A stretch of 64,000 bases of DNA from Thalassococcus sp. S3 (lineage in GTDB: Bacteria > Pseudomonadota > Alphaproteobacteria > Rhodobacterales > Rhodobacteraceae), in assembly GCF_004216475.1 (NCBI RefSeq), contig NZ_CP022303.1:310001-374000 (forward strand), in the 5' to 3' direction. The position numbers were made by a program, and so were the translations under genes. The notes under the pieces were generated by a model. The model saw nothing but the letters and a program-made list of their open reading frames with translations, ran no database searches and was not told the origin of the DNA. This document shows, in pieces, positions 47,322 through 59,784 of the stretch; the stretch's first letter is position 1; every line of letters begins with the position of its first letter.

Positions 47322-47465
47322 CTAGCCATCCTTGGCCAAGCTGGACGGCTCGGCGTTTTCGTCGCGCATCCGTTTCTCTACCTTCCTCTTACTGGTCACC
47401 GCGAAAATGATGACCGCCGAAATGGTGAGAAGCGCGAGGCCGCCAACCAGCAATGAAACATCCAT
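47322..47465 (-). CDS. Small membrane protein, EcfG-promoter driven
   Basis: A 47-residue protein: one transmembrane helix (SLLVGGLALLTISAVIIFAV) and a charged tail (SKRKVEKRMRDENAEP). AAAGGAGGCAGCT precedes the ATG at 47465, a very strong site. An EcfG-type promoter lies 38 bp upstream, and a terminator follows, so this is a complete stand-alone stress gene. No family I can name. Confidence 0.72.
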   Translation of the reverse strand: MDVSLLVGGLALLTISAVIIFAVTSKRKVEKRMRDENAEPSSLAKDG

Positions 47466-47502: not shown

Positions 47503-47528
47503 AACGCGCGATCTTCGGCTCTGGTTCC
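47503..47528 (-). promoter_or_regulatory. EcfG-type promoter for the 47-residue membrane protein
   Basis: On the minus strand GGAAC (47528-47524), 17 bases, CGTT (47506-47503). This equals the alphaproteobacterial EcfG consensus and lies 38 bp before the start at 47465. It is within the tail of the amidotransferase gene region upstream. Confidence 0.75.
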
Positions 47529-47544
47529 GTCGGATTTCGCGTTG

Positions 47545-48267
47545 TTAGCCGTGCAGATCGCGGGCAAGACCGGTGACCGCCGGCAATTGTGCCCTGTTGC
47601 GGCGTCCGGCACGCGCTGCTGTCACCAGGGTGCGGAAAAGGGCGCGTTGGCGTCGGGCGTAAAAAAGGTGCTCGGGATGCCATTGCACGCCCAGGGCAAA
47701 GGGTTCACTGGTCCGTTCAATCGCCTGGATCATGCCGTCACAATCGCGGGCTGCAACGCGAAGGCCACGCCCGAGGCTGTTGACGGCTTGACTGTGCAGC
47801 GCGTTGACCCGCATCGGGTTGCAGCCGACGATACCGGCCAGGCGACTGTCTGCTTCCAGCGTGACGGTCTTGCGTGGCAGAATTGTATGATACTTGCGCG
47901 AACGATAGACGCCGTATGCATTCTGATGAAGCGACCCGCCAAGCACGATGTTCATCATTTGCGACCCCCGGCAAATCCCCAAAATGGGCAAATTGCGATC
48001 AAAGGCGGCCCCCAGAAGCGTGGCCTCCATCTCGTCACGCGCCGGGTCGAGGCGCGCCTCAAGGGTCAGCGCGCCGTCGTAAAGCGTGGGCGAGATGTCA
48101 TCTCCCCCACCGATGACAACCCCATCGACTGCCCCCAGTTCGATATCAGACGGATTTTGCCATTTCACCGCGCGTCCGCCAGCCAGCCAGATATTCAGTG
48201 CCATCAGGGGAAAAATCCGCCAGCCAGAGCGCTGAGAAACAGTGACACCAATCACAGGGCGTATCAT
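47545..48267 (-). CDS. Class I glutamine amidotransferase / gamma-glutamyl hydrolase family
   Basis: A 240-residue peptidase C26-like protein. The nucleophile elbow is ILGICRGSQMMNIVLGG (Cys99) and the histidine-glutamate pair is VQWHPEHLF (His197, Glu199). IGGGDDISPTLY is typical of gamma-glutamyl-GABA hydrolases such as PuuD. Its start overlaps the stop of the amidoligase gene by 4 bp. It may hydrolyse the gamma-glutamyl bond that the partner makes, or supply ammonia. Confidence 0.87.
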   Translation of the reverse strand: MIRPVIGVTVSQRSGWRIFPLMALNIWLAGGRAVKWQNPSDIELGAVDGVVIGGGDDISPTLYDGALTLEARLDPARDEMEATLLGAAFDRNLPILGICRGSQMMNIVLGGSLHQNAYGVYRSRKYHTILPRKTVTLEADSRLAGIVGCNPMRVNALHSQAVNSLGRGLRVAARDCDGMIQAIERTSEPFALGVQWHPEHLFYARRQRALFRTLVTAARAGRRNRAQLPAVTGLARDLHG

Positions 48268-49217
48268 GCGCTCTCCCTCCGCTGGATCAGCGGGCGGATG
48301 CGCTCATAAATCGCTTCGTCCCGGCTGCGTTCTGATCGGTCCTCTGCCCAAAGCTCTGCCAGCTCACGCAAAAGGCCATCGCTTTCCGCGATCGTTTCGA
48401 TGGCCACCCAGCGTTGCCATTCCTGAACGAGGGACCAATCCGCTTCGTCGATACGACATTCAGGCAGGCGAAAGTGAAAGGTCGGCCGCGCAGATACAGC
48501 GCTGTCGTTGACGGCACGTGCCACCCGCTCCGGCGCGATCTCGGCAAAAATGCAGAGCATATCGAGACCGTGATCGCGCGACGGCGCATGGGTGAGGTAG
48601 AGCGAGATAAGCTCATCCATGCTGCCGGGGGGCGCCAGTGCAAGGTGTCGCGCAAGCGCCTTTGGATAGGGATCCACGAATGTTGTGATGTCGCGGGTGA
48701 TATCGACTGGATCGGCGCGACGCAGCGCTCGTTCGACCATCGCATAGGCCCTGAGAACGGGAAGGATATCGTCAAGATCCAGCGACCGGACTTCGACGTT
48801 GAAGTGCACCCCCACGCCCAGAAAAAGCGACCGGCGGCTGCCAAGCGCGCCTTCGGCTCGCAGCAAGGTTTCCAACGCGCTGAGTTCGTTCAGTTCGGAA
48901 TGGGAGAGAGGTTTGGTTATAATCTCTACCGGGATCACACTGCGTGCGGCAGCGTCGATCCATTCCGACTGCAGTGCGCTGATATCCTGCCGGAAACGGG
49001 TGTCGAGGTAGAAGGTAACTTCACCAATGGATGTATCTGTGATGCGCCACTTGCCGTTCTTGTTGGTGACAGTACCGCCAAGGGCACGGCCAAGGACGTC
49101 AGCGGTCTCCTCAAGGGTCAGACCGCCGAATTCAATCTCAACGCCGATGCGCCGTTCTTTGCCGCGCCGCGTTTCTGAGACCGGAAGATCGGAAAAGTTT
49201 CGGTTTGTTGTGCTCAT
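48264..49217 (-). CDS. Amidoligase family protein
   Basis: A 317-residue protein of the putative amidoligase family, related to COOH-NH2 ligases with a glutamine-synthetase-like fold. It opens with KERRIGVEIEFGGLTLEETADVLG, which carries the acidic metal-site residues (EIEF), then KWRITDTSIGE and VPVEIITKPLSHSEL-like strands, and GVGVHFNVEV with a site histidine. Substrates are unknown. The paired amidotransferase downstream is the usual companion. It lies between csbD and that gene, in the stress region, though I find no EcfG promoter directly before it. Confidence 0.85.
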   Translation of the reverse strand: MSTTNRNFSDLPVSETRRGKERRIGVEIEFGGLTLEETADVLGRALGGTVTNKNGKWRITDTSIGEVTFYLDTRFRQDISALQSEWIDAAARSVIPVEIITKPLSHSELNELSALETLLRAEGALGSRRSLFLGVGVHFNVEVRSLDLDDILPVLRAYAMVERALRRADPVDITRDITTFVDPYPKALARHLALAPPGSMDELISLYLTHAPSRDHGLDMLCIFAEIAPERVARAVNDSAVSARPTFHFRLPECRIDEADWSLVQEWQRWVAIETIAESDGLLRELAELWAEDRSERSRDEAIYERIRPLIQRRESA

Positions 49218-49270
49218 AAGTTAAAGGTGTGGTGAAGCGCGTGCCCGTTAGAACCGGCCACGCGCGGCAC

Positions 49271-49471
49271 TCACGATTTACTGCTAAGCCACTCATCCAC
49301 ATCGGCACGCGCCTTTTCCTTTGACGCGCCGTACTTTTCCTGGATGACGCCCTCCAATTTCTCCCGGTCCCCATCAATCTGGTCCCAGTCGTCGTCGGTC
49401 AGGCGTCCCCACGTGCTTTGGGCTTCACCTTTGAGCTGTTTCCATTTTCCTTGAATTTGGTCCCAATTCAT
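49271..49471 (-). CDS. CsbD family stress protein
   Basis: A 66-residue hydrophilic CsbD protein: MNWDQIQGKWKQLKGEAQST, then WGRLTDDDWDQIDGDREKLEG. Function is unknown, but the family is a standard general stress marker. GGAGGCGAAGCG precedes the ATG at 49471. A consensus EcfG promoter lies 44 bp upstream. Confidence 0.92.
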   Translation of the reverse strand: MNWDQIQGKWKQLKGEAQSTWGRLTDDDWDQIDGDREKLEGVIQEKYGASKEKARADVDEWLSSKS

Positions 49472-49514
49472 CGCTTCGCCTCCGAATATGTTGCGTTGCA
49501 GCATTCACCTAAAC

Positions 49515-49539
49515 AACGTCCGCAGCCCGCTTCAGTTCC
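49515..49539 (-). promoter_or_regulatory. EcfG-type promoter for csbD
   Basis: On the minus strand GGAAC (49539-49535), 16 bases, CGTT (49518-49515), full consensus, in the csbD-histidine kinase gap. Confidence 0.82.
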
Positions 49540-49582
49540 GTCAAAGCGCGATTTTCTCTGGCGGTCCGCCTTAGCGGGATAA

Positions 49583-51367
49583 TCAGTAGTCCCGCTCTTC
49601 CGGTACGAACTCGCTGCGGGTGAAGGTCACGATCACCCGGTATTCGTCTGACGCTTCCTCGACTATGATCTCGCCGTCGAGTTGATTGACAAAAGCTTGT
49701 ACCAACCGGTTGCCCAGACCTGTTCCGCTTGGCGGGGCGCGTTCGTCTGAGATGGAGTTGGCGATCTTCAGCTCGACCGTGTCATCCTCTTCTTCGATCA
49801 GGCTGACATCAATGGTGGGCGCTTGCCCCTCCGGTGCACGCGCGTATTTCAGCGCGTTCGTCATCAACTCGGACACCAGAAGCGAAAATGGGACCGCCTG
49901 ATCCGGGAAGAGCTGAATGGTCTCGGCCGACACGTTGATGTTCTGCGGCACGATACTTTCAGAACCCAGTCTGGACATCTGACCGATCAGATCCTGGATC
50001 ATCGCGCCGGCGTCGATCTTGTCGATGCGCTCGGTCTGATAAAGGCGCTGGTGGATCTTTGCCAGGCCCAGAACCCGATCCTGAAGCCGGCCCACGATCT
50101 GACGGGTTTCGGAATGGGTCGCCGTCCGCTGCTGCATGTTCATGATCGACGAGATGAGTTGGAGGTTGTTCTTGACCCGGTGATGCACTTCTTTCAGCAG
50201 AATGGATTTTTGATGGACGAGAGCGTCTTTCTGATTCAGCAGCTCATTTTGCGTTTTGATCAGCCCCTCCATCTCGCGCATGACGTTTTCGCGGTCGGCA
50301 TCTTCCAGAATCACGCGATTGGCCATGGCGGCAAAGGTGTCGCGCATTTCGCTAAGCTCGCTTGGGACCGAGGAGCCCTTGAGCGGACTTGGTAAGGTAC
50401 GATTGCGCGCGAAGGAGACCATCTGTCCGCGAAGGGATTTGACGTGGCGGATAACGAGGCGATCCAGGGCATAGACGGCAACGAGAACGCTGGCGATCCA
50501 CATCAGGATCGGAAACGGTACGCTCCACACTGCGGGGCGGACCCTCGACGCGATCCCTTGGTCGGAAGTCCAGGTGCCCAGGGCGTAGACGGTCTCCGGT
50601 ATGATGGAGACAACTGTGTAGACGCGCTCTTGCCCATTGCTGTCTTCAGCGACAAAGACGTCCGAGGTGGATCCGACGAACCTGGTCAGATCAAGATCCG
50701 GGGGAAGTTGCCGCATTGCGGTATCGACACCCCGTTCCGCTGTCAGGATCTGCCCGAACGCGTTGAAGGTCAGCAAGCCGATCGGCTTTTCCAGACGGGT
50801 CAAGTCTGCGGTCGGGTCGATCCAGTCATGAGGTATCGAGAGGGTCAGATATCCGACAAAGCTGTCCTCCTCGAAAACCGGCTGGCTGACGATCACGACC
50901 GAAGTTCCGCTGAGCGGCGCATTGAAATTCGCCTCAACGACCGGGCGGGGGGTCTCCATGATCTCGTCAAAACGGTCGAACGTGGTAAAGTCATATTCCT
51001 GTTCTGTGCTTGAACAGGTCATGATCCCATCTCTGGGAAGGAGCCCGACAAATGAGTACTTGGGGTTGGCTTCGATGAACTGCCGAAGATAACTGTCGCA
51101 CCTTTCACCGTCGCGGCGAAGCGAAAGTGCCACGGCGCCAAGGGCTTCTGCCGCGCCGAAAGCACGCTCAAGAGAGAGTTGTTCGCGCGACGCCGCATCG
51201 CGGGTCAGTGTCAGAACCGACAGTTCGGACGAACGCGCGGTCTGATGCATGACTTCAAGCGTTTGCAGCACCGCGATGATGCCAATCGGAGCAAGCGCAA
51301 CGGACAGGAAAACCGTTACCCGGAATACCAGCCCCTTGCGCTTGCGCGCAGTCGGTATTGTTATCAA
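49583..51367 (-). CDS. Membrane sensor histidine kinase, HisKA_2/HWE type
   Basis: A 594-residue kinase. It has one helix near the N-terminus (VFRVTVFLSVALAPIGIIAVL), a periplasmic sensor domain of about 240 residues, a second helix (FPILMWIASVLVAVYALDRLV), a HAMP-like linker and coiled coil, then KEVHHRVKNNLQLISSIM with the phospho-histidine (His395/396) and an ATPase domain ending GTGLGNRLVQAFVNQLDGEI. The likely start is TTG at 51367, overlapping the ecfG stop by 4 bp; a longer frame upstream is a shadow of ecfG. Such kinases phosphorylate PhyR and so start the general stress response. The signal is unknown. Confidence 0.9.
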   Translation of the reverse strand: MITIPTARKRKGLVFRVTVFLSVALAPIGIIAVLQTLEVMHQTARSSELSVLTLTRDAASREQLSLERAFGAAEALGAVALSLRRDGERCDSYLRQFIEANPKYSFVGLLPRDGIMTCSSTEQEYDFTTFDRFDEIMETPRPVVEANFNAPLSGTSVVIVSQPVFEEDSFVGYLTLSIPHDWIDPTADLTRLEKPIGLLTFNAFGQILTAERGVDTAMRQLPPDLDLTRFVGSTSDVFVAEDSNGQERVYTVVSIIPETVYALGTWTSDQGIASRVRPAVWSVPFPILMWIASVLVAVYALDRLVIRHVKSLRGQMVSFARNRTLPSPLKGSSVPSELSEMRDTFAAMANRVILEDADRENVMREMEGLIKTQNELLNQKDALVHQKSILLKEVHHRVKNNLQLISSIMNMQQRTATHSETRQIVGRLQDRVLGLAKIHQRLYQTERIDKIDAGAMIQDLIGQMSRLGSESIVPQNINVSAETIQLFPDQAVPFSLLVSELMTNALKYARAPEGQAPTIDVSLIEEEDDTVELKIANSISDERAPPSGTGLGNRLVQAFVNQLDGEIIVEEASDEYRVIVTFTRSEFVPEERDY

Positions 51368-51921
51368 AAAGCGCCGGCTCCGTTTGATGCGACGACGGCC
51401 TGTGTGGCCTGATCCGTCAATTCTATGGCATCGTCGGCGTCCAAACTCATAAGTTCGGTTAAACGATTTCTTGCGCGGTTTACCCGGCTTTTGATCGTAC
51501 CGACGGCAACGCCACACATTTCTGCCGCGTCTTCATAGGCAAAGCCCTGCGCGCCGACCAATGTCAGCGCCTCGCGTTGTTCATCGGGAAGCTGATCAAA
51601 GGCCTGCTTGAAATCCATCAGGTTCAAACGACCATCATGCGCCGGCTTCTCGGCCAGGTTCAGAGAGATGACGCCATCGATATCGGCGACCTCGCGGTTG
51701 AGCTTTCGGCGGCTTGAATAATAGGTGTTGCGGAGGATGGTGAAGAGCCAGGCGCGCATGTTGGTGCCCGCCTCGAATTTGTCGATGTTTGTCCAGGCTT
51801 TGACCAGCGTATCCTGCACCATGTCATCCGCGGTGGCGGAGTTCCGGGTGAGCGAAAGCGCAAAGGCTCTCATCGAAGGGATGTGTTCGAGGAGCTCTTC
51901 GCGGGGGTCAGGCGTTGTCAT
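51364..51921 (-). CDS. ecfG: General stress ECF sigma factor
   Basis: A 185-residue EcfG-type sigma factor. Region 2 is LIPSMRAFALSLTRNSATADDMVQDTLVKAW-like, here beginning EHIPSMRAFALSLTRN; region 4 is EQREALTLVGAQGFAYEDAAEMCGVAVGTIKSRVNRARNRL. It directs RNA polymerase to GGAAC-N16/17-CGTT promoters. It overlaps nepR at its start by 14 bp and the kinase gene at its end by 4 bp. NepR would bind and silence it until PhyR is phosphorylated. Confidence 0.93.
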   Translation of the reverse strand: MTTPDPREELLEHIPSMRAFALSLTRNSATADDMVQDTLVKAWTNIDKFEAGTNMRAWLFTILRNTYYSSRRKLNREVADIDGVISLNLAEKPAHDGRLNLMDFKQAFDQLPDEQREALTLVGAQGFAYEDAAEMCGVAVGTIKSRVNRARNRLTELMSLDADDAIELTDQATQAVVASNGAGAF

Positions 51922-52075
51922 TCGACATGCCTCCGGCTGCTTCTTTTTCTTTCAGCTGAGCAAGCAGATCCCGAAACCGATCCGGAACCTCCTCCTCCAG
52001 TGTCGGTTGGAAGACGCGCTTGAGATTTTCGTCTATCGCGATGTCCTGTGGCGTTTTGCCATCGTCGTCAGCCAT
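51908..52075 (-). CDS. nepR: Anti-sigma factor NepR
   Basis: A 55-residue protein found by translating the ecfG-phyR gap. The core IDENLKRVFQPTLEEEVPDRFRDLLAQL is unmistakable NepR: two helices that bind EcfG or phosphorylated PhyR. Its stop lies 14 bp inside ecfG, so the two are translated together and their dose is linked. An EcfG-type promoter lies 57 bp before its start, giving self-amplification. Confidence 0.92.
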   Translation of the reverse strand: MADDDGKTPQDIAIDENLKRVFQPTLEEEVPDRFRDLLAQLKEKEAAGGMSNDNA

Positions 52076-52124
52076 GATACGCTCGTTGCCTTCCGGTCAA
52101 GATAATAAAAAATTCGCTCTCACC

Positions 52125-52157
52125 GGAACCTAACTATGTGATGAGGCGTTAGGTTCC
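52125..52157. promoter_or_regulatory. Interlocked divergent EcfG promoters
   Basis: Plus strand toward phyR: GGAAC (52125-52129), 17 bases, CGTT (52147-52150). Minus strand toward nepR-ecfG: GGAAC (52157-52153), 17 bases, AGTT (52135-52132). The two sites form a perfect inverted repeat, GGAACCTAAC (52125-52134) and GTTAGGTTCC (52148-52157), spaced by 13 bases. Confidence 0.82.
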
Positions 52158-52185
52158 CGAAAAAATTCAAAAAGGTTGGAGTGAC

Positions 52186-52992
52186 ATGTCGGAAAGCGCC
52201 AAGCCAAACAAAACGGACGAGATTGCAACGTCCCTGCCTTACTTGCGCCGCTACGCGCGGGCCTTGACCGGATCGCAGGGAACGGGCGACCAATACGCCG
52301 CTGCAACGCTCGAAGCTTTGTTGACGGATCAGTCGATACTGGAAAGCCATCCGGCCAAGGTCGCGCTCTTCAAAACATTTCATGGTATCTGGCAAAGCAC
52401 CGGCGCGCCGGTCGAAGAGGCGGGCAGCGGGCTGGAAGCGAGGGCGCAGGCCTATCTTTCCAAGCTGACGGAAAACAGCCGCGAGGCGCTTTTGCTTCAT
52501 ACGATTGAGGAATTCAGCATCACTGATGTTGGACGGATCATGGATATGAGCACCGGAGAGGCCGACCAGCTGATCACGACGGCCCGTCAGGAAATGCAAG
52601 ACGCCGTTTCTGGCAAGGTCATGATCATCGAGGACGAGGCGATCATCGCCATGGATCTCGAAAGCTTGGTTGCGGATATGGGGCACCGCGTCACTGGCGT
52701 GGCGCGTACGCATGTCTCCGCGGTGGCATTGGCCGAGCGAGAAGTTCCCGATCTTATCCTTGCAGACATTCAACTCGCCGACAATTCGTCGGGCATTGAC
52801 GCGGTCAATGAAATTCTTGCCGCAAGCGGAGAGCGACCGGTCATCTTTATCACGGCATTCCCAGAACGTCTTTTGACAGGCGAGCGCCCGGAACCTGCTT
52901 TCTTGATCTCAAAACCCTATTCCGAAGATCAGGTCAGATCAGCAATCAGTCAGGCCATGTTCTTTTCGTCAACGGAAACGCTTCTAGCTTGA
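52186..52992 (+). CDS. phyR: General stress response regulator PhyR
   Basis: A 268-residue two-part protein. Residues 1-135 mimic EcfG (PYLRRYARALTGSQGTGDQY; NSREALLLHTIEEFSITDVGRIMDMS), and residues 145-262 are a receiver (VMIIEDEAIIAMDLESLV) with phospho-acceptor Asp194 in LILADIQLAD and lysine in FLISKPYS. When phosphorylated, the sigma-like part binds NepR and frees EcfG. GGAG lies 6 bp before the ATG. An EcfG promoter drives it, so it is part of the loop it controls. Confidence 0.95.
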   Translation: MSESAKPNKTDEIATSLPYLRRYARALTGSQGTGDQYAAATLEALLTDQSILESHPAKVALFKTFHGIWQSTGAPVEEAGSGLEARAQAYLSKLTENSREALLLHTIEEFSITDVGRIMDMSTGEADQLITTARQEMQDAVSGKVMIIEDEAIIAMDLESLVADMGHRVTGVARTHVSAVALAEREVPDLILADIQLADNSSGIDAVNEILAASGERPVIFITAFPERLLTGERPEPAFLISKPYSEDQVRSAISQAMFFSSTETLLA

Positions 52993-52995
52993 ACA

Positions 52996-53023
52996 AAGGC
53001 CCCGGTGTTGACCGGGGCCTTTT
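52996..53023. terminator. Bidirectional terminator between phyR and dps
   Basis: AAGGCCCCGGT (52996-53006), GTTG loop, ACCGGGGCCTT (53011-53021), then TT on the plus strand. A perfect 11-bp stem between convergent genes. Confidence 0.85.
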
Positions 53024-53031
53024 CACATCCG

Positions 53032-53529
53032 TCAGCTTTTAGAAATCGCGCGAAGCATCCAAGCTGCCTTTTCGTGGAAGTTTGACCGCTCGGTGGCCAA
53101 ATCTTCGGTCACCGGGTCCTCGCCTTCTTCCGACAGCTTGATGAGCGCGTGCAGACGATGCGCGATACGCTCGTGATCGGCGGCAAGGTCTTCGCACATG
53201 TCACCGGCGCTGGGCAGGCTGTCGTGATCTTCGATCACCGAGTTCTGCATGATTTCCGCCATCTTCATCGGTGCCAGCTTGCCCAGGGCGCGGATTCGCT
53301 CGGCCAGGTCGTCGGCGGCGGCGAACATGTCCTCGTATTGTGCCTCTGTCAGGTTGTGGACCGAATAAAACATCGGGCCCTCCACGTTCCAGTGATAGGC
53401 ATGTGTTTTGAAGATCAGCCGGTACGTGTCTGCCAGAACATCCGCCAATCCCTTGGCGATTGCATCGATGTTACGCACGCCTGTTTCCACGACATCGGTC
53501 TCGGGAACGACATTCAGTGCATTAGCCAT
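53032..53529 (-). CDS. dps: Dps-family DNA-protection ferritin
   Basis: A 165-residue ferritin-like protein that stores iron and shields DNA from oxidants. The ferroxidase motifs are present: THAYHWNVEGPMFYSVHNLTEAQYEDMFAAADDLAERI. The N-terminus is short and acidic, not lysine-rich, so DNA binding may be weak. A full-consensus EcfG promoter lies 36 bp upstream. Confidence 0.92.
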   Translation of the reverse strand: MANALNVVPETDVVETGVRNIDAIAKGLADVLADTYRLIFKTHAYHWNVEGPMFYSVHNLTEAQYEDMFAAADDLAERIRALGKLAPMKMAEIMQNSVIEDHDSLPSAGDMCEDLAADHERIAHRLHALIKLSEEGEDPVTEDLATERSNFHEKAAWMLRAISKS

Positions 53530-53564
53530 AGCGCTTTCACTCCTTTCGTTGTGGTCGAAAGGTC

Positions 53565-53589
53565 AACGCCGGGGTCGTGAGATTGTTCC
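53565..53589 (-). promoter_or_regulatory. EcfG-type promoter for dps
   Basis: On the minus strand GGAAC (53589-53585), 16 bases, CGTT (53568-53565), full consensus, 36 bp before the dps start. Confidence 0.85.
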
Positions 53590-53630
53590 TGATCTAAATG
53601 CCGCGGCTCACGGCATCCGCCTTCCAGTCA

Positions 53631-53999
53631 TCAGCGTCCGGGAAAGCTGTCGCGCAAGGCCAGCGCCGATGTAATTGCGCTGTTCAGCGTATCCTGGGAA
53701 AAGGGCTTGGTGATGCGCGCCAGGGTCGTCTCGCCTGACATCCCGCCGTCTTCCGACGCGTCGATGACCACCATTGCGCTTCGGATGCGCTCCAGCTGTT
53801 CTATCACACCGGAGGCCGCAAGCTCTGCCGAACTGGCGCAAATCACCGCCAGAATACAATGGCCGATGCGGTCCAGCGTCTCGCGGCACTGCTCGAGATC
53901 GGGCACCATGACCGGAGGGGCGTCAGGGAACCGGGCACCGACAATACTGGCGATATCCTCGGCCACGAACGTGTCTTTTTCAACAATGATGACCTGCAC
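53631..53999 (-). CDS. Degenerate receiver-domain protein
   Basis: A 122-residue single receiver-like domain. The N-terminus VIIVEKDTFVAEDIASIV matches the receiver acidic pocket and the lysine strand is kept in ARITKPFSQDTLNSAI. The phospho-acceptor position (CILAVICASSAE) has no aspartate, and the usual Ser/Thr strand (AMVVIDASEDG) is altered. It cannot be phosphorylated in the normal way. The start is GTG at 53999 with a poor ribosome site. It sits in the stress region between dps and a Crp/Fnr gene and could compete with or scaffold PhyR-type signalling; that is speculation. Confidence 0.7.
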   Translation of the reverse strand: MQVIIVEKDTFVAEDIASIVGARFPDAPPVMVPDLEQCRETLDRIGHCILAVICASSAELAASGVIEQLERIRSAMVVIDASEDGGMSGETTLARITKPFSQDTLNSAITSALALRDSFPGR

Positions 54000-54050
54000 G
54001 GGGAACCGCCTGTTTCGATGTCATGACCGGGAATGCTTCGCCCGCATTAT

Positions 54051-54075
54051 GGAACCTGCTTCGGCGCTGCGCATT
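54051..54075 (+). promoter_or_regulatory. Possible EcfG-like promoter for the Crp/Fnr gene
   Basis: GGAAC (54051-54055), 16 bases, CATT (54072-54075): one base off consensus at the -10. It lies 31 bp before the start at 54107. Confidence 0.35.
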
Positions 54076-54106
54076 AAACTATGACATAGCAATTGAAGGA
54101 ATCGCG

Positions 54107-54835
54107 ATGACCACGCAGTGCAAAGATTGCCCCCTGCGAACCAAGCCGCTGTTTCAGGGCATGAGTGAAGAAGAAGCGCAACAAACACAGCGGTTTAAGT
54201 CGGGTGAGCTGGTTGTCGATCCCGGAACGCCCCTGATGCTTGAGGGGTCAAATGCACCACAACTCTATACCGCGTTGCGGGGTATGGGCATTCGTTACAA
54301 GACATTGCCCAACGGGCGGCGGCAGGTGATCAATCTGATCTTTCCCGGTGATTTCATTGGCCTACAGGCGGGCATCATGGGCGAGATGAGCCATTCCGTC
54401 GAGGCGACCACCAAGATGACGCTGTGTGTCTTTGACCGGAAGGCATTTTTCAATTTTTTTCGCAGCAACACCGAACGTGCCTTCGACATCACATGGCTTG
54501 CCGCAGTTGAGGAGCATTTTCTAGGCGAAGCGCTCACCACCGTGGGGCAAAGAAGCGCCGAATCGTCGGTCGCCTGGGCCATGCTGAAGGTGTATCACCG
54601 ATGTGACGCGCTTGGCCTTGCGCAGGATCGATCCATGCCCTTCCCGTTTCGTCAGCAGGATCTGGCGGACGCTTTGGGCCTGTCTCTCGTTCATACCAAC
54701 AAGACATTGTCCAAACTGCGGGACGCGCAGATGGCGCGCTGGTCCGATGGAGAGCTCAACATCCTCAATTACGACAGACTGGCTGAACTTGCGATGATGC
54801 AGGAAGAGGAAGCCCGACCGCGTCCACTGATCTAA
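54107..54835 (+). CDS. Crp/Fnr-family transcriptional regulator
   Basis: A 242-residue regulator with a cyclic-nucleotide-type beta barrel (FKSGELVVDPGTPLMLEGSNAPQLYTALRGMG; INLIFPGDFIGLQAG) and a winged helix (FRQQDLADALGLSLVHTNKTLSKLRD). The N-terminus has Cys5 and Cys8 (QCKDCPLR), too few with others in view for a standard FNR iron-sulfur site. AAGGA precedes the ATG at 54107. Related proteins in this group respond to oxygen, NO or light-linked redox state; the signal here is unknown. Confidence 0.88.
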   Translation: MTTQCKDCPLRTKPLFQGMSEEEAQQTQRFKSGELVVDPGTPLMLEGSNAPQLYTALRGMGIRYKTLPNGRRQVINLIFPGDFIGLQAGIMGEMSHSVEATTKMTLCVFDRKAFFNFFRSNTERAFDITWLAAVEEHFLGEALTTVGQRSAESSVAWAMLKVYHRCDALGLAQDRSMPFPFRQQDLADALGLSLVHTNKTLSKLRDAQMARWSDGELNILNYDRLAELAMMQEEEARPRPLI

Positions 54836-54860
54836 GTGCCCGTCGCGATCAACGGATGAG

Positions 54861-54888
54861 ACCCTGACTTGCGTACAAGTCAGGGTTT
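54861..54888. terminator. Bidirectional terminator at the Crp/Fnr-BrkB junction
   Basis: ACCCTGACTTG (54861-54871), CGTA loop, CAAGTCAGGGT (54876-54886), then TT. A perfect 11-bp stem. Its right arm covers the stop codon of the BrkB-family gene. Confidence 0.8.
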
Positions 54889-55800
54889 CGTTTCGATCAG
54901 GTTGTCCGCGACATACGCACCGCGCTGACCCATAGGACGATCTTCCCCGACCGTGGTGTCTATGCGCGTCCGCAGTTCCAGATGCGCGTTCAGCCCGGCG
55001 CCAAGCAGAACCAGAAAGCTTGAAAGGTAAAGCCACATCAACATGGCGATCACGGCGCCAATGGATCCATAGGTTTTGTTGTAGCTGTCGAACTGAGAGA
55101 TATAGACGGAAAACGCGATCGATACCGCAATCCAGCAAATCACGCTCAGGATCGCCCCGGGCGTGATCCACGGCAATTTTGGACCCCGTCGGTTCGGGCC
55201 GTAGCGATATAAAAGCGCGATGCCCACAAAGATGACAAAGATCCCGATGAGCCAGCGCAGTGCTTCTGCGGTGATGCTGGCAATGGGGCCAAGGGGTATG
55301 AATGCAAGAATGATCGGAGTGATCACCACCGCAAGCATCGCGACCATGCCAACGCAGACAAGGGCGACCGTAAGACCCAGCGCCGTCGCGTAATGTGCAA
55401 GTCCGCCCCGGTTCTTCTCCTCGAAGATCGCGTTCAGACCCATCATCATGGCGCCTACACCTGCCCGCGCGGACCAGAGTGCTAGAAGAATGGACAAAAC
55501 ACCGGCCCAGCCGAGGGTCTGGTTCTGCGCCCCTGCAATGCCCGTCAACTGCACTTCGATGAGGCTATAGACATCAGCCGGCACCAAGGGCCGCAGCACC
55601 TCAAGCTGCTCGGACACGACGACGGGATCGGAAAACAATCCCCAGATCGCAACAAAGGCCGCGAGCGCCGGGAATAGCGACAGCATGGAAAAAAACGCAA
55701 CCCCAGCCGAAATCAGGCCGAGGTTTTTGTCGCCGATATCGGCGGCCAATCCACGTAACGTGGACCAAAGGATGCCACGAACCTCGGGGACGAGGCGCAT
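54880..55800 (-). CDS. YihY/virulence factor BrkB family membrane protein
   Basis: A 306-residue inner-membrane protein with about six helices. Family features are DKNLGLISAGVAFFSMLSLFPALAAFVAIWG, ILLALWSARAGVGAMMMGLNAIFEE and YGPNRRGPKLPWITPGAILSVI. Role unknown; once mis-named RNase BN. It starts 1 bp after the PLDc_N gene, so the two are cotranscribed, probably from a near-consensus EcfG promoter. Confidence 0.9.
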   Translation of the reverse strand: MRLVPEVRGILWSTLRGLAADIGDKNLGLISAGVAFFSMLSLFPALAAFVAIWGLFSDPVVVSEQLEVLRPLVPADVYSLIEVQLTGIAGAQNQTLGWAGVLSILLALWSARAGVGAMMMGLNAIFEEKNRGGLAHYATALGLTVALVCVGMVAMLAVVITPIILAFIPLGPIASITAEALRWLIGIFVIFVGIALLYRYGPNRRGPKLPWITPGAILSVICWIAVSIAFSVYISQFDSYNKTYGSIGAVIAMLMWLYLSSFLVLLGAGLNAHLELRTRIDTTVGEDRPMGQRGAYVADNLIETKP

Positions 55801-55801
55801 G

Positions 55802-55993
55802 TCAGACCACGCGCTTGGAAGCGCGCGGACCCAGGATAAGCCAAGCGATCACGCCGATCAGCGGAAGGACGAGGATCAGCAGAACCCAGAGCACTTTCGT
55901 GCCGGTGCTCGCAGATGAGCCGATCACCGAAACGATTGCCCATATATTGAGGATGAGCAGGATGAACCCGCCGATGCCTGCGATTTCGACCAT
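55802..55993 (-). CDS. PLDc_N domain small membrane protein
   Basis: A 63-residue protein with two helices (IGGFILLILNIWAIVSVIG and VLWVLLILVLPLIGVIAWLILGP), the pattern of the phospholipase D N-terminal domain found alone. GGGAGACTTATT precedes the ATG at 55993; the longer upstream frame is unsupported. It is first in a unit with the BrkB-family gene. Confidence 0.85.
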   Translation of the reverse strand: MVEIAGIGGFILLILNIWAIVSVIGSSASTGTKVLWVLLILVLPLIGVIAWLILGPRASKRVV

Positions 55994-56090
55994 AATAAGT
56001 CTCCCTTGGTAGTCCGCCGCATGGACACGGCGGAAATGGTAGCAACCGCCTTCGATAGGGATCAAAGGCGCTATTCTATCTCTACCATTA

Positions 56091-56115
56091 AACACCGTTC
56101 TGCCCGCCGGGTTCC
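56091..56115 (-). promoter_or_regulatory. Near-consensus EcfG promoter for PLDc_N-BrkB
   Basis: On the minus strand GGAAC (56115-56111), 16 bases, TGTT (56094-56091): one base off the CGTT -10. It lies 98 bp before the PLDc_N start. A TTCAGGC/GCCTGAA hairpin (56122-56140) stands just upstream and may end the mhqD transcript. Confidence 0.5.
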
Positions 56116-56299
56116 GTCATTTTCAGGCCTTCAGCCTGAAGCCACATTGCGAACGGTTTTTCTTTTTCAAGATCAACGCAGTACGCGGCGTGTGCCGACG
56201 GCAAAGAACAGCTGACCCAGTCCTTCGCGCCCGCGTCGCTGGCGGATTACCCTGGGGGGCGGCATGGATCCACCGGACATCCGCCGGATGGCTGCGGCC

Positions 56300-56905
56300 T
56301 TATTCGGTCAGAAACGTCTGCAACGTCGCCAATTCGGTTGAGCGTAGCTCATGACCACCATCATGCAGGTCGACCGTCAGTTTTGCGCCCTGAATTCCGA
56401 ACCACGAAATCAGGTGTTCGGTCATGGGAAGCGGGCAGATCGGATCCTGCCGTCCAGCGGTCACCAGAACGCGCCGCCCCTTCAAGCCAGGTTGCGGCTT
56501 AGGATCCCATGGGATCAGCGGGTGCAAGAGACCGATCCGGTCAAAGAGATCAGGATCGGTCATGGCAACCGATGCCAGGATATTCGCGCCGTTCGAATAC
56601 CCAAACCCATAGACGGGCGTATTGGCGTACCGCGTCTTATGGGAGGCGACGAAACTGCGCAGCTTTTCGGTGCGGCTTGCAAGGTCCTCCATGTCATAGA
56701 CGCCTTCTCCCGTGCGGCGGAAAAACCGCGCGGCCCCCATCTCTGACACATCTCCCCGTGGGGAAATGACGCCTGCGCCGGGGACAAGCTGCTGCGCAAG
56801 CCTGAAGAACTGTGTCTCATCCCCACCCGTGCCGTGGAAGGCAAAGATCAGCGGCGCGCCTTGGTCCGGCGGGCTGGTCAGTGCCATGTAACTCGTGTCA
56901 AGCAT
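56300..56905 (-). CDS. Alpha/beta hydrolase, MhqD-like carboxylesterase
   Basis: A 201-residue phospholipase/carboxylesterase. Oxyanion loop APLIFAFHGTGGDETQF, nucleophile serine in GFGYSNGANILAS, aspartate in AGRQDPICP and histidine in DGGHELRS. It overlaps the ring-cleaving dioxygenase gene by 8 bp. In other bacteria this pair (MhqO-MhqD) is induced by quinones. The ATG at 56905 fits the overlap; one five codons upstream is in frame. Confidence 0.85.
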   Translation of the reverse strand: MLDTSYMALTSPPDQGAPLIFAFHGTGGDETQFFRLAQQLVPGAGVISPRGDVSEMGAARFFRRTGEGVYDMEDLASRTEKLRSFVASHKTRYANTPVYGFGYSNGANILASVAMTDPDLFDRIGLLHPLIPWDPKPQPGLKGRRVLVTAGRQDPICPLPMTEHLISWFGIQGAKLTVDLHDGGHELRSTELATLQTFLTE

Positions 56906-57851
56906 GCCCCGGCTCCCCATCGTCGCTTATGGCGGGCAGATGCGCCTCGATCCGTGCGCGATGCGGCTCGTACCGCTCGGGCAGTTTCAAGGCCTGACCC
57001 AGATGAGCGGTATCCTCGTCCCGGTCGAAACCCGGCTCGTTTGTCGCGATTTCAAACAGGATCCCCCCCGGTGTGCGGAAGTAGATGGCCCAGAAATAGT
57101 CCCGGTCGATGACAGGCGTGACTTGATACCCGGTGTCAAGCAACGCCTTGCGAACCTCAAGTTGCGCAGCCCGATCCTTGACCGCAAAGGCGATGTGATG
57201 CACCGACCCCGCGCCCTGATTGGCCGCGCGGCCCTCTGGCACCTTCTCCAGGTCGATGGTGTCGGCCGCGTTGCCGCCCTCAATGATATAGCGCGTCACG
57301 TCTCCTTCGGTTTCAGCAGCTTGATATCCCATGAAGCGGAGCAATTCGCCGGTCGCATCCACATCGCGCAGACGGAAACGGGCGCCGCGGAAACCAAGAA
57401 TGCCAACGTCTTCAGACAGGTCCGACCTGGTCCAGGGGGTCCGGTCTCTCATGTCACTCTCCACAAGCGCAAAGCTGTCGCCATCGGGGCCGTCGAAGTC
57501 CAGCCGCTTCTCTCCAAAGGCGTGCTGCTCGGCCAGCCCGCTCACACCTTGGCCGGCAAGGCGATCCGTCCAAAATCCAAGGCTGCCTCGGGGAACCGCG
57601 AATTCGGTCACACCCACTTCACCAACCCCGCGAGCCCCGCGCGCCATTTGGCCGAAAGGGAAATAGGTCATCACCGAACCCGGCGTTCCCTGCGCATCCC
57701 CGTAATAAAGGTGGTAGACGTCGGGCGCATCGAAATTGACCGTTTTCTTTACCCGACGCAGGCCGAGTGTTCCGGTGAAGAAGGCGTTGTTGTCGTTGGC
57801 ATCTGCCGCCAGTGAGGTCACGTGATGCAGGCCTTGGATTTCGTTCAGCAT
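56898..57851 (-). CDS. VOC ring-cleaving dioxygenase, MhqO-like
   Basis: A 317-residue two-module vicinal oxygen chelate protein. It has LHHVTSLAADANDNNAFFTGTLGLRRVKKTVNFD at the start, AGSVHHIAFAVKD in the middle and GILFEIATNEPGF near the end, giving the His/His/Glu metal site. Members open hydroquinone- or catechol-type rings and protect against quinones. It is divergent from a LysR gene, whereas Bacillus uses a MarR-type MhqR. Confidence 0.87.
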   Translation of the reverse strand: MLNEIQGLHHVTSLAADANDNNAFFTGTLGLRRVKKTVNFDAPDVYHLYYGDAQGTPGSVMTYFPFGQMARGARGVGEVGVTEFAVPRGSLGFWTDRLAGQGVSGLAEQHAFGEKRLDFDGPDGDSFALVESDMRDRTPWTRSDLSEDVGILGFRGARFRLRDVDATGELLRFMGYQAAETEGDVTRYIIEGGNAADTIDLEKVPEGRAANQGAGSVHHIAFAVKDRAAQLEVRKALLDTGYQVTPVIDRDYFWAIYFRTPGGILFEIATNEPGFDRDEDTAHLGQALKLPERYEPHRARIEAHLPAISDDGEPGHA

Positions 57852-57907
57852 ATCGATCTCCGATCAAGCTCAGATAGTGTTGCATCTGAACTTAGCCGCT
57901 TGATTGA

Positions 57908-57924
57908 TGTTTTGAATTGAAACA
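57908..57924. promoter_or_regulatory. Candidate LysR box
   Basis: TGTTT (57908-57912) and AAACA (57920-57924) are inverted arms around 7 bases, giving the T-N11-A type layout of LysR sites, in the mhqO-LysR gap. Confidence 0.45.
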
Positions 57925-57963
57925 AAGATACATTTACTGTTTCGATGATTGATAATAATGTAA

Positions 57964-58884
57964 ATGGACGAACTCAGGCCCATTCGCGTCTTCCTTGAAG
58001 TTGCCGATCAAAGCAGCTTTGTCGCCGCAGCGCGCCGATTGCAGATGACGCCTGCGTCCGTCACCCGGATCATTGCCAAACTCGAAGCGGATCTGGGGCA
58101 GCAGCTTTTGGTGCGCACCACGCGGCAGGTTTCCCTGACAAGCGCGGGTGCGATCGTTGCATCGCGCTATCGACCGCTGGTGGAGGAGTTTGATCGCGCT
58201 GGGCGTGATCTGGGCCGCGCGGGGCTTGCCGACCGGGGTGAGTTGAAGATCAACGCGCCGATGTCGATGGGGCTGCGGCTTCTGCCTGGATTGGTCTCCG
58301 GGTTCCGGCTGGCCTATCCGAATATTGCGTTGAACGTTCAGATGACCGATGCGCTGGTCGATATCCTGGAAGAGCCCTGCGATCTCTCGATCCGTATTTC
58401 GGGACCGCCTTCGGACAAATCGACTATCTGGCGCAAGATCTGCGAAGTGCCGCGCCACGTCATTGCGGCACCGTCCCTTTTCGACCGTACCGTGCGGCCT
58501 GCCTCCCCGGACGAGATCAATCCTGAAATCTGCCTCTCCTACAGTGCAAGCGGTACAGCCGAAAAATGGCAGTTTCGCAATGGCAGCGCGCGCCGGACAA
58601 TTACGGCCGGGTCCGGCGTCGTATCGAATAATGGCGATTTTCTTTATGCGCTGGTGAGGTCGGGTAACGGTCTTGCCTTGTTGCCCGACTTCATCTTCGC
58701 GCCCGGCCTTCAAGAGGGCACAGTCGAATGTCTGCTGGAGGGTTGGCAGGTGCTGCCTCTCTGGCTCACCCTCTTCTATCCCCCTTATGAACAATTACCC
58801 CCTCTGGTCGCCACCTTCTCCGACTTTTTCGAGGCTTACATGCGTGACATCGACGGGCTGGATTTTTCCACAGCGCCGTTCTGA
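57964..58884 (+). CDS. LysR-family transcriptional regulator
   Basis: A 306-residue LysR regulator. The helix-turn-helix is IRVFLEVADQSSFVAAARRLQMTPASVTRIIAKLEADLG, then the linker and a ligand domain (GELKINAPMSMGLRLLPGL). The frame starts at an ATG with no strong ribosome site. It is divergent from mhqO-mhqD and probably turns them on in response to an aromatic or quinone. Confidence 0.87.
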   Translation: MDELRPIRVFLEVADQSSFVAAARRLQMTPASVTRIIAKLEADLGQQLLVRTTRQVSLTSAGAIVASRYRPLVEEFDRAGRDLGRAGLADRGELKINAPMSMGLRLLPGLVSGFRLAYPNIALNVQMTDALVDILEEPCDLSIRISGPPSDKSTIWRKICEVPRHVIAAPSLFDRTVRPASPDEINPEICLSYSASGTAEKWQFRNGSARRTITAGSGVVSNNGDFLYALVRSGNGLALLPDFIFAPGLQEGTVECLLEGWQVLPLWLTLFYPPYEQLPPLVATFSDFFEAYMRDIDGLDFSTAPF

Positions 58885-58899
58885 CGTCTGGCAGCGTGA

Positions 58900-59727
58900 T
58901 CAGATCTCCTCGCGGACCTGACCATAGGCCAGCAGGGCGAAGACCACGGTTCCCCCGATGATATTACCGGCCAGCACAGGCAGGAAGAACTGAAGAAGCG
59001 CGTCGGGTATGCCAAGAAGACCTTGCCAGATCAGATAGGCCGCTTCGACGGAGCCCGCGATAATGTGGGTGAAATCGCCTGCCGCGATCAGCCATGTGAA
59101 AGCAACGATCACCCAGAAAGAGCTGCTTTCGGCCTGTGGCAACATCCAGACGATGGACGCGACGAGAACACCGGCGGGGATGGCCCGCATGAAGGCCTCA
59201 GCCGGGGCAAATCCGGTGGCGTGGCGTGACAAGTCCTCGATGGCCGGGCGGAGGTCATCCGGGATCGCGGAGGTCAGCGCAAAAAGGGCGCCGACCGCAA
59301 ATGCGCCCAGAACGTTCGCGCCGAGCACGATAGACCAAAGCCGCATCACGCAGCCAAGCATCCCCAAACCGGGGCGGGCCATGAACGGCAAAACCGTGGT
59401 GATGGTGTTTTCGGTAAAAAGCTGCATCCGGCCAAGGATGACGACAAGGAAACCCAGACTATAGCCCAGGTTCTCTATCAAATACCGCGATCCGGTATCG
59501 GGCAGATAGGTGCGCAAGATCGCCTCACCCAGAACAGACAGGCTGATCATCAGCCCGGCCGCGACACCGGACCAGAACAGCGCGCTGGTCGGTCGCTCAA
59601 GCTCTTCTTCTCCGTCCCGGCGAATGACTTCGTAGATCATTCTCGGCGCCAGTTTCGAGGCTTGTTCGACGTTTTCGTCTTCCGCGCCCTTCTTGTTTTC
59701 GAACGCGTGTGGCGCCTGATCCTTCAT
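58900..59727 (-). CDS. Formate/nitrite transporter (FNT) family protein
   Basis: A 275-residue FNT channel-type protein. It has an acidic N-terminal tail of about 45 residues, then FWSGVAAGLMISLSVLGEAIL, FTENTITTVLPFMARPG, the VLGANVLGAFAVGALFAL helix, and PAGVLVASIVWML. It resembles the YfdC branch, whose substrate is not known. A consensus EcfG promoter lies 32 bp upstream, so this channel is expected to be stress-induced. Confidence 0.87.
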   Translation of the reverse strand: MKDQAPHAFENKKGAEDENVEQASKLAPRMIYEVIRRDGEEELERPTSALFWSGVAAGLMISLSVLGEAILRTYLPDTGSRYLIENLGYSLGFLVVILGRMQLFTENTITTVLPFMARPGLGMLGCVMRLWSIVLGANVLGAFAVGALFALTSAIPDDLRPAIEDLSRHATGFAPAEAFMRAIPAGVLVASIVWMLPQAESSSFWVIVAFTWLIAAGDFTHIIAGSVEAAYLIWQGLLGIPDALLQFFLPVLAGNIIGGTVVFALLAYGQVREEI

Positions 59728-59758
59728 GCAAAGACTCCCGACAGAAAAGATACCGGTA

Positions 59759-59784
59759 AACGCGTGGGCAAAGCTTTGGGTTCC
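59759..59784 (-). promoter_or_regulatory. EcfG-type promoter for the FNT gene
   Basis: On the minus strand GGAAC (59784-59780), 17 bases, CGTT (59762-59759), full consensus, 32 bp before the start. Confidence 0.82.

Follow-up and report, generated by a model that had tools for sequence, protein, structure and literature searches.

In Alphaproteobacteria the general stress response (GSR) rests on PhyR, NepR and the extracytoplasmic function (ECF) sigma factor EcfG; the phyR and nepR-ecfG units mostly diverge from each other and are both described as standing under EcfG- or GSR-dependent promoters (PMC4814048, PMC8103513). The response is little studied in Rhodobacteraceae: a 2018 report states that the role of PhyR had previously been unanalysed in any member of the Rhodobacterales (PMC5830050), and GSR biochemistry for Rubellimicrobium came later (PMC12148442). 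Here we analysed a 64-kb stretch of Thalassococcus sp. S3 DNA (the window; positions 310001-374000 of the main contig in a 5.0-Mb genome of 4 contigs) and found that the candidate core promoters of phyR and nepR-ecfG are interleaved in one 33-bp near-palindrome (Table 1), within a promoter set that is open to test.

The locus shares with the described alphaproteobacterial systems the three control genes, the divergent layout, a kinase of the HWE/HisKA_2 type nearby, the PhyR domains and the promoter consensus GGAAC-N16/17-C/GGTT, the nepR site of the window (AGTT) being one base off. It differs in that the core promoters are interleaved at 32-33 bp, whereas 23 of the 65 loci examined from other families have them back-to-back or apart, and in that candidate target genes cluster around the locus. 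The PhyR locus of R. sphaeroides is reported to have the same gene order, with a Crp-Fnr gene downstream and cotranscription of a nepR-like gene with ecfG; phyR and ecfG mRNAs answered different stresses there, phyR rising with singlet oxygen, superoxide and diamide and not with membrane stress, and ecfG rising only with membrane stress, in a PhyR-dependent manner (PMC5830050). For the related genus Rubellimicrobium, promoters of the same consensus have been predicted in R. thermophilum, a genome that differs in holding two GSR loci (PMC12148442).

Two further systems resemble the element in geometry. The bidirectional promoters described in E. coli are pseudo-symmetrical DNA on which RNA polymerase can be engaged in either orientation but not in both at once; they share a -10 box, and their start sites are mostly 18, also 10 or 23, bp apart (PMC12825309). 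At the phyR/nepR element an ECF sigma factor is implied, no -10 box is shared, and the start sites would be about 36 bp apart, judging from the profile of lone sites. Because its -10 boxes are separate, the element is not a bidirectional promoter in the narrow sense of that report, though it may work like one. In the hrpL-hrpJ region, RNA polymerase bound with an ECF sigma factor at one promoter is reported to hinder the divergent one (PMC5263251); the opposite promoter there is sigma-54 dependent, whereas both arms here bear the same ECF-type signature. No description of an interleaved ECF promoter pair was found in the literature searched for it, full texts not being covered. The mechanism class is already known; what is new is that the promoters are interleaved and that this geometry is nearly fixed in the family.

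The phyR site reads rightward and the nepR-ecfG site leftward through the near-palindrome, whose ten-base arms are perfect in the window. Compared with its reverse complement, the window element agrees at 20 of 33 positions (0.64 on average over 75 elements). Each -10 box lies within the opposite spacer, two bases inward of the opposite -35 box, and 11 bp separate the two -10 boxes. An earlier sequence-only reading of this DNA (the original prediction) had listed the phyR and nepR sites apart and the latter as a lone AGTT variant; both sites exist, but as the two halves of one shared element.

To count such elements, tblastn alignments of PhyR served as anchors in 81 loci, namely the window and those of 80 named relatives, with at least 3 of 4 -10 letters matching. 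The nearest PhyR relatives are Rhodobacteraceae, with 72-75% identity in the top four (an uncultured member, two Salipiger and one Roseivivax). A two-sided element was present in the window and in 74 of the 80 relatives, its outer ends 32 bp (47 elements) or 33 bp (28 elements) apart. A count based on gene starts gave 70 of 80, one locus lacking a called phyR start, and lost cases to misplaced phyR starts. Five combinations of span and spacer length (16 or 17) were seen, so insertions and deletions happened while the 32/33 register held. Among other divergent EcfG-type pairs of the named loci none of 23 was interleaved (spans 0 to -175), compared with 58 of 58 phyR pairs on the gene-start basis. 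The -10 consensus is not fixed to one arm: among 70 elements it stands on the phyR side alone in 27, on the nepR side alone in 10, on both in 18 and on neither in 15. In Cereibacter flavus, which we take to be a relative of R. sphaeroides, the arrangement of the window is reversed: the nepR side bears the consensus -10 box and the phyR side AGTT.

We then compared the register across the class, in a sample of 70 of 84 phyR places plus 9 family loci (of the 14 places omitted, 11 are extra copies; locus L212 ends at a contig end). The 14 loci of the same family comprised 7 at span 32-33, 4 at 31, 2 with the nepR-side site only and 1 with none. In the 65 loci of other families, 12 pairs stood tightly back-to-back and 11 were divergent with a distance between them; 4 were interleaved at 32 (all in one family), 4 had span 27 (all in one other family) and 1 was arranged otherwise. 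A further 9 loci had only the phyR-side site, 8 only the opposite one and 16 none; many other families lack one or both recognisable sites. As judged from recognisable sites, interleaving is the rule in Rhodobacteraceae and uncommon elsewhere. Family f29 (L191, L194, L195, L203) carries another symmetric pair, of span 27, with GGTT -10 boxes overlapping the opposite -35. A strict palindrome pattern matched only three of 387 class genomes, Thalassococcus sp. S3, one of the same family (G146) and one of another (G188); having matched just 2 of 4 phyR-bearing family genomes, it was too strict, and the register was therefore measured from the sites. In G188 (L146, C17) a close form of the palindrome precedes, by about 70 nt, the gene of a single-domain response regulator other than phyR.

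A start-site signal could be read from 118 lone exact sites. Counted from the start of the -10 box, 51% of them have C at offset 11 and 47-53% have A at offsets 12-14, which fits a start site 8-11 nt behind the -10 box, and they are not A-rich upstream of -35. The A-tract just past the palindrome is conserved, with A in 45, 40 and 40 of 46 elements at three columns; since it falls in the expected start region of lone sites, it probably belongs to the 5' end of the phyR mRNA. Slippage or start-site control on the phyR side is possible there. A role of the A-tract as an upstream activating element for nepR is disfavoured, lone sites being A-richer at the expected transcript start and not upstream of -35.

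According to the pathway published for Alphaproteobacteria, and judging here from genes and sites, stress would lead a PhyK-like kinase to phosphorylate PhyR, phosphorylated PhyR would remove NepR from EcfG, and freed EcfG with RNA polymerase would transcribe genes behind GGAAC-N16/17-CGTT (or NGTT/CATT), the control genes phyR and nepR-ecfG being among its own targets. The near-palindrome would serve both units. One polymerase-EcfG complex should cover both promoters, and two in opposite directions should not fit on 33 bp, so that a given binding event would yield transcript for PhyR or for NepR-EcfG but not for both; steric exclusion of this kind has been stated for bidirectional promoters (PMC12825309). 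We rate the chance of mutual exclusion of phyR and nepR-ecfG transcription at the element as even. The two -10 boxes, in the window CGTT for phyR and AGTT for nepR, would set the split between the arms. Somewhat more tentatively, the element could act as an either/or divider, in which DNA geometry, not a repressor, fixes the ratio of PhyR to sigma and anti-sigma factor and damps noise, and which species retune through one -10 box. The expression data from R. sphaeroides (PMC5830050) agree loosely with exclusion. If true, exclusion would be a simple way to hold the ratio of sigma factor, inhibitor and activator.

The element stands within a wider set of candidate sites. The motif was taken as exact GGAAC-N16/17-CGTT, one-base -10 variants were scored apart, and the gap is the number of nt between the end of the -10 box and the start codon. 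The whole window holds five exact matches (100 shuffles gave a mean of 1.02, and one of them reached five), and no site, exact or varying by one base, stands within 160 nt of the 10 other gene starts examined. The full-consensus sites that the original prediction had placed 32-44 bp before phyR, csbD, dps, the formate/nitrite (FNT) channel gene and a gene for a 47-residue protein (p47) are all there, at 31-43 nt as measured, and so are its variants before nepR (AGTT), PLDc_N-brkB (TGTT) and, given there with a 'perhaps', crp (CATT), although the PLDc_N-brkB site is weak in Thalassococcus sp. S3.

Conservation was examined in the phyR loci of the 80 named relatives, in the 160 nt upstream of best-match orthologues. 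Exact and variant sites, respectively, occurred before 45 and 26 of 79 phyR orthologues, 25 and 39 of the 64 called nepR orthologues (64 of 64), 9 and 1 of 10 for csbD, 8 and 3 of 13 for dps, 16 and 5 of 34 for PLDc_N, 7 and 3 of 24 for FNT, 1 and 6 of 7 for p47, and 0 and 12 of 24 for crp. Genes expected to be operon-internal were mostly bare (exact plus variant: ecfG 0+0 of 78, C26 0+0 of 27, brkB 1+0 of 29, kinase 2+2 of 80, amidoligase 4+1 of 27). At promoter positions before genes besides phyR, nepR and crp, the -10 letters were CGTT in 118 cases, GGTT in 31, TGTT in 15, AGTT in 7 and CATT in 2. At crp, CATT accounts for 11 of the 12 variants, two lying at 82 and 87 nt, and CGTC at 116 nt for the remaining one; such a recurrent off-consensus -10 box may mean weaker or different recognition. 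In the control, which used 150 nt, 111 of 255 target orthologues had the exact motif, and 359 permuted patterns of the same composition gave a mean of 0.37 and a maximum of 20. For the other genes of the 80 loci the count was 92 of 1294 (permuted mean 1.35, maximum 13), many of the 92 reading as further stress-type genes such as DUF1328-type small membrane proteins. This comparison approaches, in relatives, the outcome that the original prediction had named as speaking against it, a motif equally common before unrelated genes genome-wide, and it does not refute the prediction.

The sites also concentrate around phyR. Exact matches within 10 kb of phyR, read by eye, numbered 5, 3, 6, 3, 7, 8, 6 and 4 in Thalassococcus sp. 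S3, G001, G002, G006, G008, G009, G012 and G014 (for G002 among the 62 of 66 matches listed, which include the phyR contig), that is, 42 of 472 matches, with 0.24-0.42 expected in each genome and P from 0.003 to 7e-10. All eight phyR-bearing family genomes in the test were enriched (G004, in 1160 contigs, was left out), in line with the stress island originally suggested. Motif density was 0.186 per kb across the 80 named loci versus 0.0134 per kb genome-wide in Thalassococcus sp. S3. The genome-wide density scan proposed at the outset gave an excess near phyR, but the raw motif is not rare, with 67 exact matches (69 rows minus 2 duplicates) versus 137 for the reversed control pattern. Genes were placed by a simple codon-usage caller trained on the window: besides matches inside genes, 3 were coding but before a start, 17 were noncoding and preceded a gene start by no more than 250 nt, and 6 were intergenic with no called gene, 3 of these preceding short open reading frames by eye. 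The product of one such frame resembles a small entericidin lipoprotein. The regulon is not confined to the local set of the original prediction: a second cluster, at 4.642-4.646 Mb, has 3 exact sites out of the roughly twenty promoter-type sites of the genome. This second cluster (L142, C1:4641000-4648000) includes DUF1328 and, by eye, PRC-barrel-like, phospholipase D-like and AI-2E-type transporter fragment sequences.

A typical target family follows phyR across genera. Among 159 family genomes, one per genus, 78 had phyR and 70 had DUF1328 (67 both, 11 phyR alone, 3 DUF1328 alone, 78 neither), phyR not being found in 81 of the 159 genera at E 1e-40. DUF1328 was thus present in 67 of 78 phyR-positive and 3 of 81 phyR-negative genomes (Fisher P 4.5e-29, not corrected for phylogeny), and 52 of the 67 genomes having both carry a DUF1328 gene no more than 11 kb from phyR. 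An initial set of 15 genomes had pointed the same way, with DUF1328 in all 8 phyR-positive and none of the 7 phyR-negative genomes, and CsbD in 5 of 8 and 0 of 7; an exact or variant site stood within 170 nt at 6 of 6 CsbD loci and 9 of 10 DUF1328 loci. The general stress response and this target family seem to appear and vanish jointly.

Taken together, sequence evidence supports the stretch as a general stress response locus with a cluster of its own target genes, and EcfG probably uses the sites before csbD, dps, FNT, p47, PLDc_N-brkB, crp and the control genes. Several points weigh on the other side. In the genome, 41 of the 67 matches lie inside coding sequence and the reversed control is twice as frequent, which makes the motif alone weak, and relatives without phyR show similar whole-genome counts. 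For this reason, and because the reversed control is often commoner, we do not take motif density over whole genomes as evidence of function. The co-occurrence statistic for phyR and DUF1328 ignores phylogeny. An R. sphaeroides phyR mutant is described with membrane and UV effects only, without a broad stress phenotype (PMC5830050). As to exclusion, the two units are commonly described as amplifying jointly (PMC8103513), and E. coli bidirectional promoters are reported to compete only once activity rises (PMC12825309), so exclusion may be silent at low activity. Finally, 6 of the 81 loci lack the full two-sided element: L058, L063 and L078 are decayed in the same register, Rubellimicrobium L096 and L100 are faint, and L066 shows no trace.

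Alternatively, the two promoters of the element may be ordinary EcfG promoters that overlap by chance, their register inherited without regulatory consequence and the genes co-induced. Amplification through two GSR-dependent promoters (PMC8103513), the lack of any need to compete at low activity (PMC12825309) and tolerance of a span of 31, as in 4 of the 14 loci of the family in the class sample, would all fit, and we give this explanation a substantial weight, short of an even chance; the register of 32/33 held in 75 of 81 loci despite insertions and deletions, with the 23 other divergent pairs at 0 to -175, argues against it. It appears improbable that the palindrome serves mainly as an operator for a dimeric transcription factor, with promoter-like letters secondary. 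The perfect ten-base arms in the window would suit this reading, and 34 of 46 elements of 32 bp have T at column 26, versus 31% T just behind the -10 box in lone sites, so promoters do not account for every conserved base. However, the strongly conserved columns are otherwise the -35 and -10 boxes and the centre is unconserved, the boxes vary as promoters do (NGTT, CATT), spacers stay at 16-17, and lone sites share the boxes.

The identity of the sigma factor is a separate matter. Several ECF groups share -35 boxes of the GGAAC type. A GGAACTT box is named for E. coli RpoE (PMC8103513), and the sites could in principle be used by an ECF sigma factor other than the adjacent EcfG; this seems improbable, since the sites concentrate at phyR-ecfG in 8 of 8 genomes, DUF1328 follows phyR and carries a site in 9 of 10 loci, and the consensus is the published one (PMC4814048, PMC12148442). 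Selection after the fact of chance matches in a GC-rich genome, to which the 67 genomic matches and the one shuffle in 100 that reached five might point, is strongly disfavoured and in our view scarcely credible, considering the conservation before orthologues, the permuted controls and the enrichment in other genomes.

Table 1. Features of the phyR-nepR-ecfG region, in window coordinates (gap in nt)
Feature	Position	Strand	Remarks
Near-palindrome, 33 bp	52125..52157	both	GGAACCTAAC-N13-GTTAGGTTCC; phyR and nepR-ecfG sites interleaved
phyR site	52125..52150	+	GGAAC-N17-CGTT, exact; gap 35
nepR-ecfG site	52132..52157	-	GGAAC-N17-AGTT; gap 56
A-tract	52160..52165	+	just past palindrome, phyR side; offsets 13-18
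csbD site	49515..49539	-	exact; gap 43
dps site	53565..53589	-	exact; gap 35
FNT channel gene site	59759..59784	-	exact; gap 31
p47 site	47503..47528	-	exact; gap 37
crp site	54051..54075	+	GGAAC-N16-CATT; gap 31
PLDc_N-brkB site	56091..56115	-	GGAAC-N16-TGTT; gap 97, weakest placed
phyR, anti-anti-sigma response regulator	52186..52992	+	Pfam PhyR_sigma2, PhyR_sigma-like, Response_reg above cut-off
nepR, anti-sigma factor	51908..52075	-	Pfam NepR 52.1 bits (cut-off 25.7)
ecfG, ECF sigma factor	51364..51921	-	Pfam Sigma70_r2, PhyR_sigma2, Sigma70_r4_2; NCBIfam NF009198 above cut-off
HisKA_2 sensor kinase, PhyK-like	49583..51367	-	Pfam HisKA_2, HWE_HK above cut-off
csbD	49271..49471	-	Pfam CsbD
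Amidoligase_2	48264..49217	-	Pfam
C26 glutamine amidotransferase	47545..48267	-	Pfam
p47, 47-aa protein	47322..47465	-	open reading frame; one hydrophobic stretch by eye
dps / ferritin-like	53032..53529	-	Pfam Ferritin
Crp/Fnr-type regulator (crp)	54107..54835	+	Pfam
brkB	54880..55800	-	Pfam
PLDc_N membrane protein	55802..55993	-	Pfam
FNT channel	58900..59727	-	Pfam Form_Nir_trans

Gene families were assigned by Pfam and NCBIfam, minus-strand proteins being searched minus the first residue or residues. The nepR and ecfG frames overlap by 14 bases and are divergent from phyR, and the solved chains that match PhyR include one named PhyR (4qic). The kinase scores 202 bits against NCBIfam PhyK, under the 750-bit equivalog cut-off, and p47 has no family match in Pfam or NCBIfam. 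In 25 of the 27 relatives with an amidoligase, that gene lies 3.5-3.7 kb before phyR (loci L032-L068) and, by eye, directly behind the apparent kinase gene as part of the nepR-ecfG-kinase run; the window, where it is accompanied by C26, differs in that csbD, with its own site, sits between kinase and amidoligase.

Between dps and crp, positions 53631-53999 of the minus strand encode a 122-aa receiver-like protein with no Pfam or NCBIfam match and two usable orthologues in the 80 loci. By eye it reads ICAS at the usual position of the phospho-acceptor Asp, and it may therefore be a pseudo-receiver. At 56300-57851 on the minus strand, a gene for an MhqD-like carboxylesterase (NCBIfam 119.5 bits, under the 325-bit cut-off) overlaps a glyoxalase/dioxygenase gene; the two are divergent from a LysR gene and may form a quinone-degradation pair.

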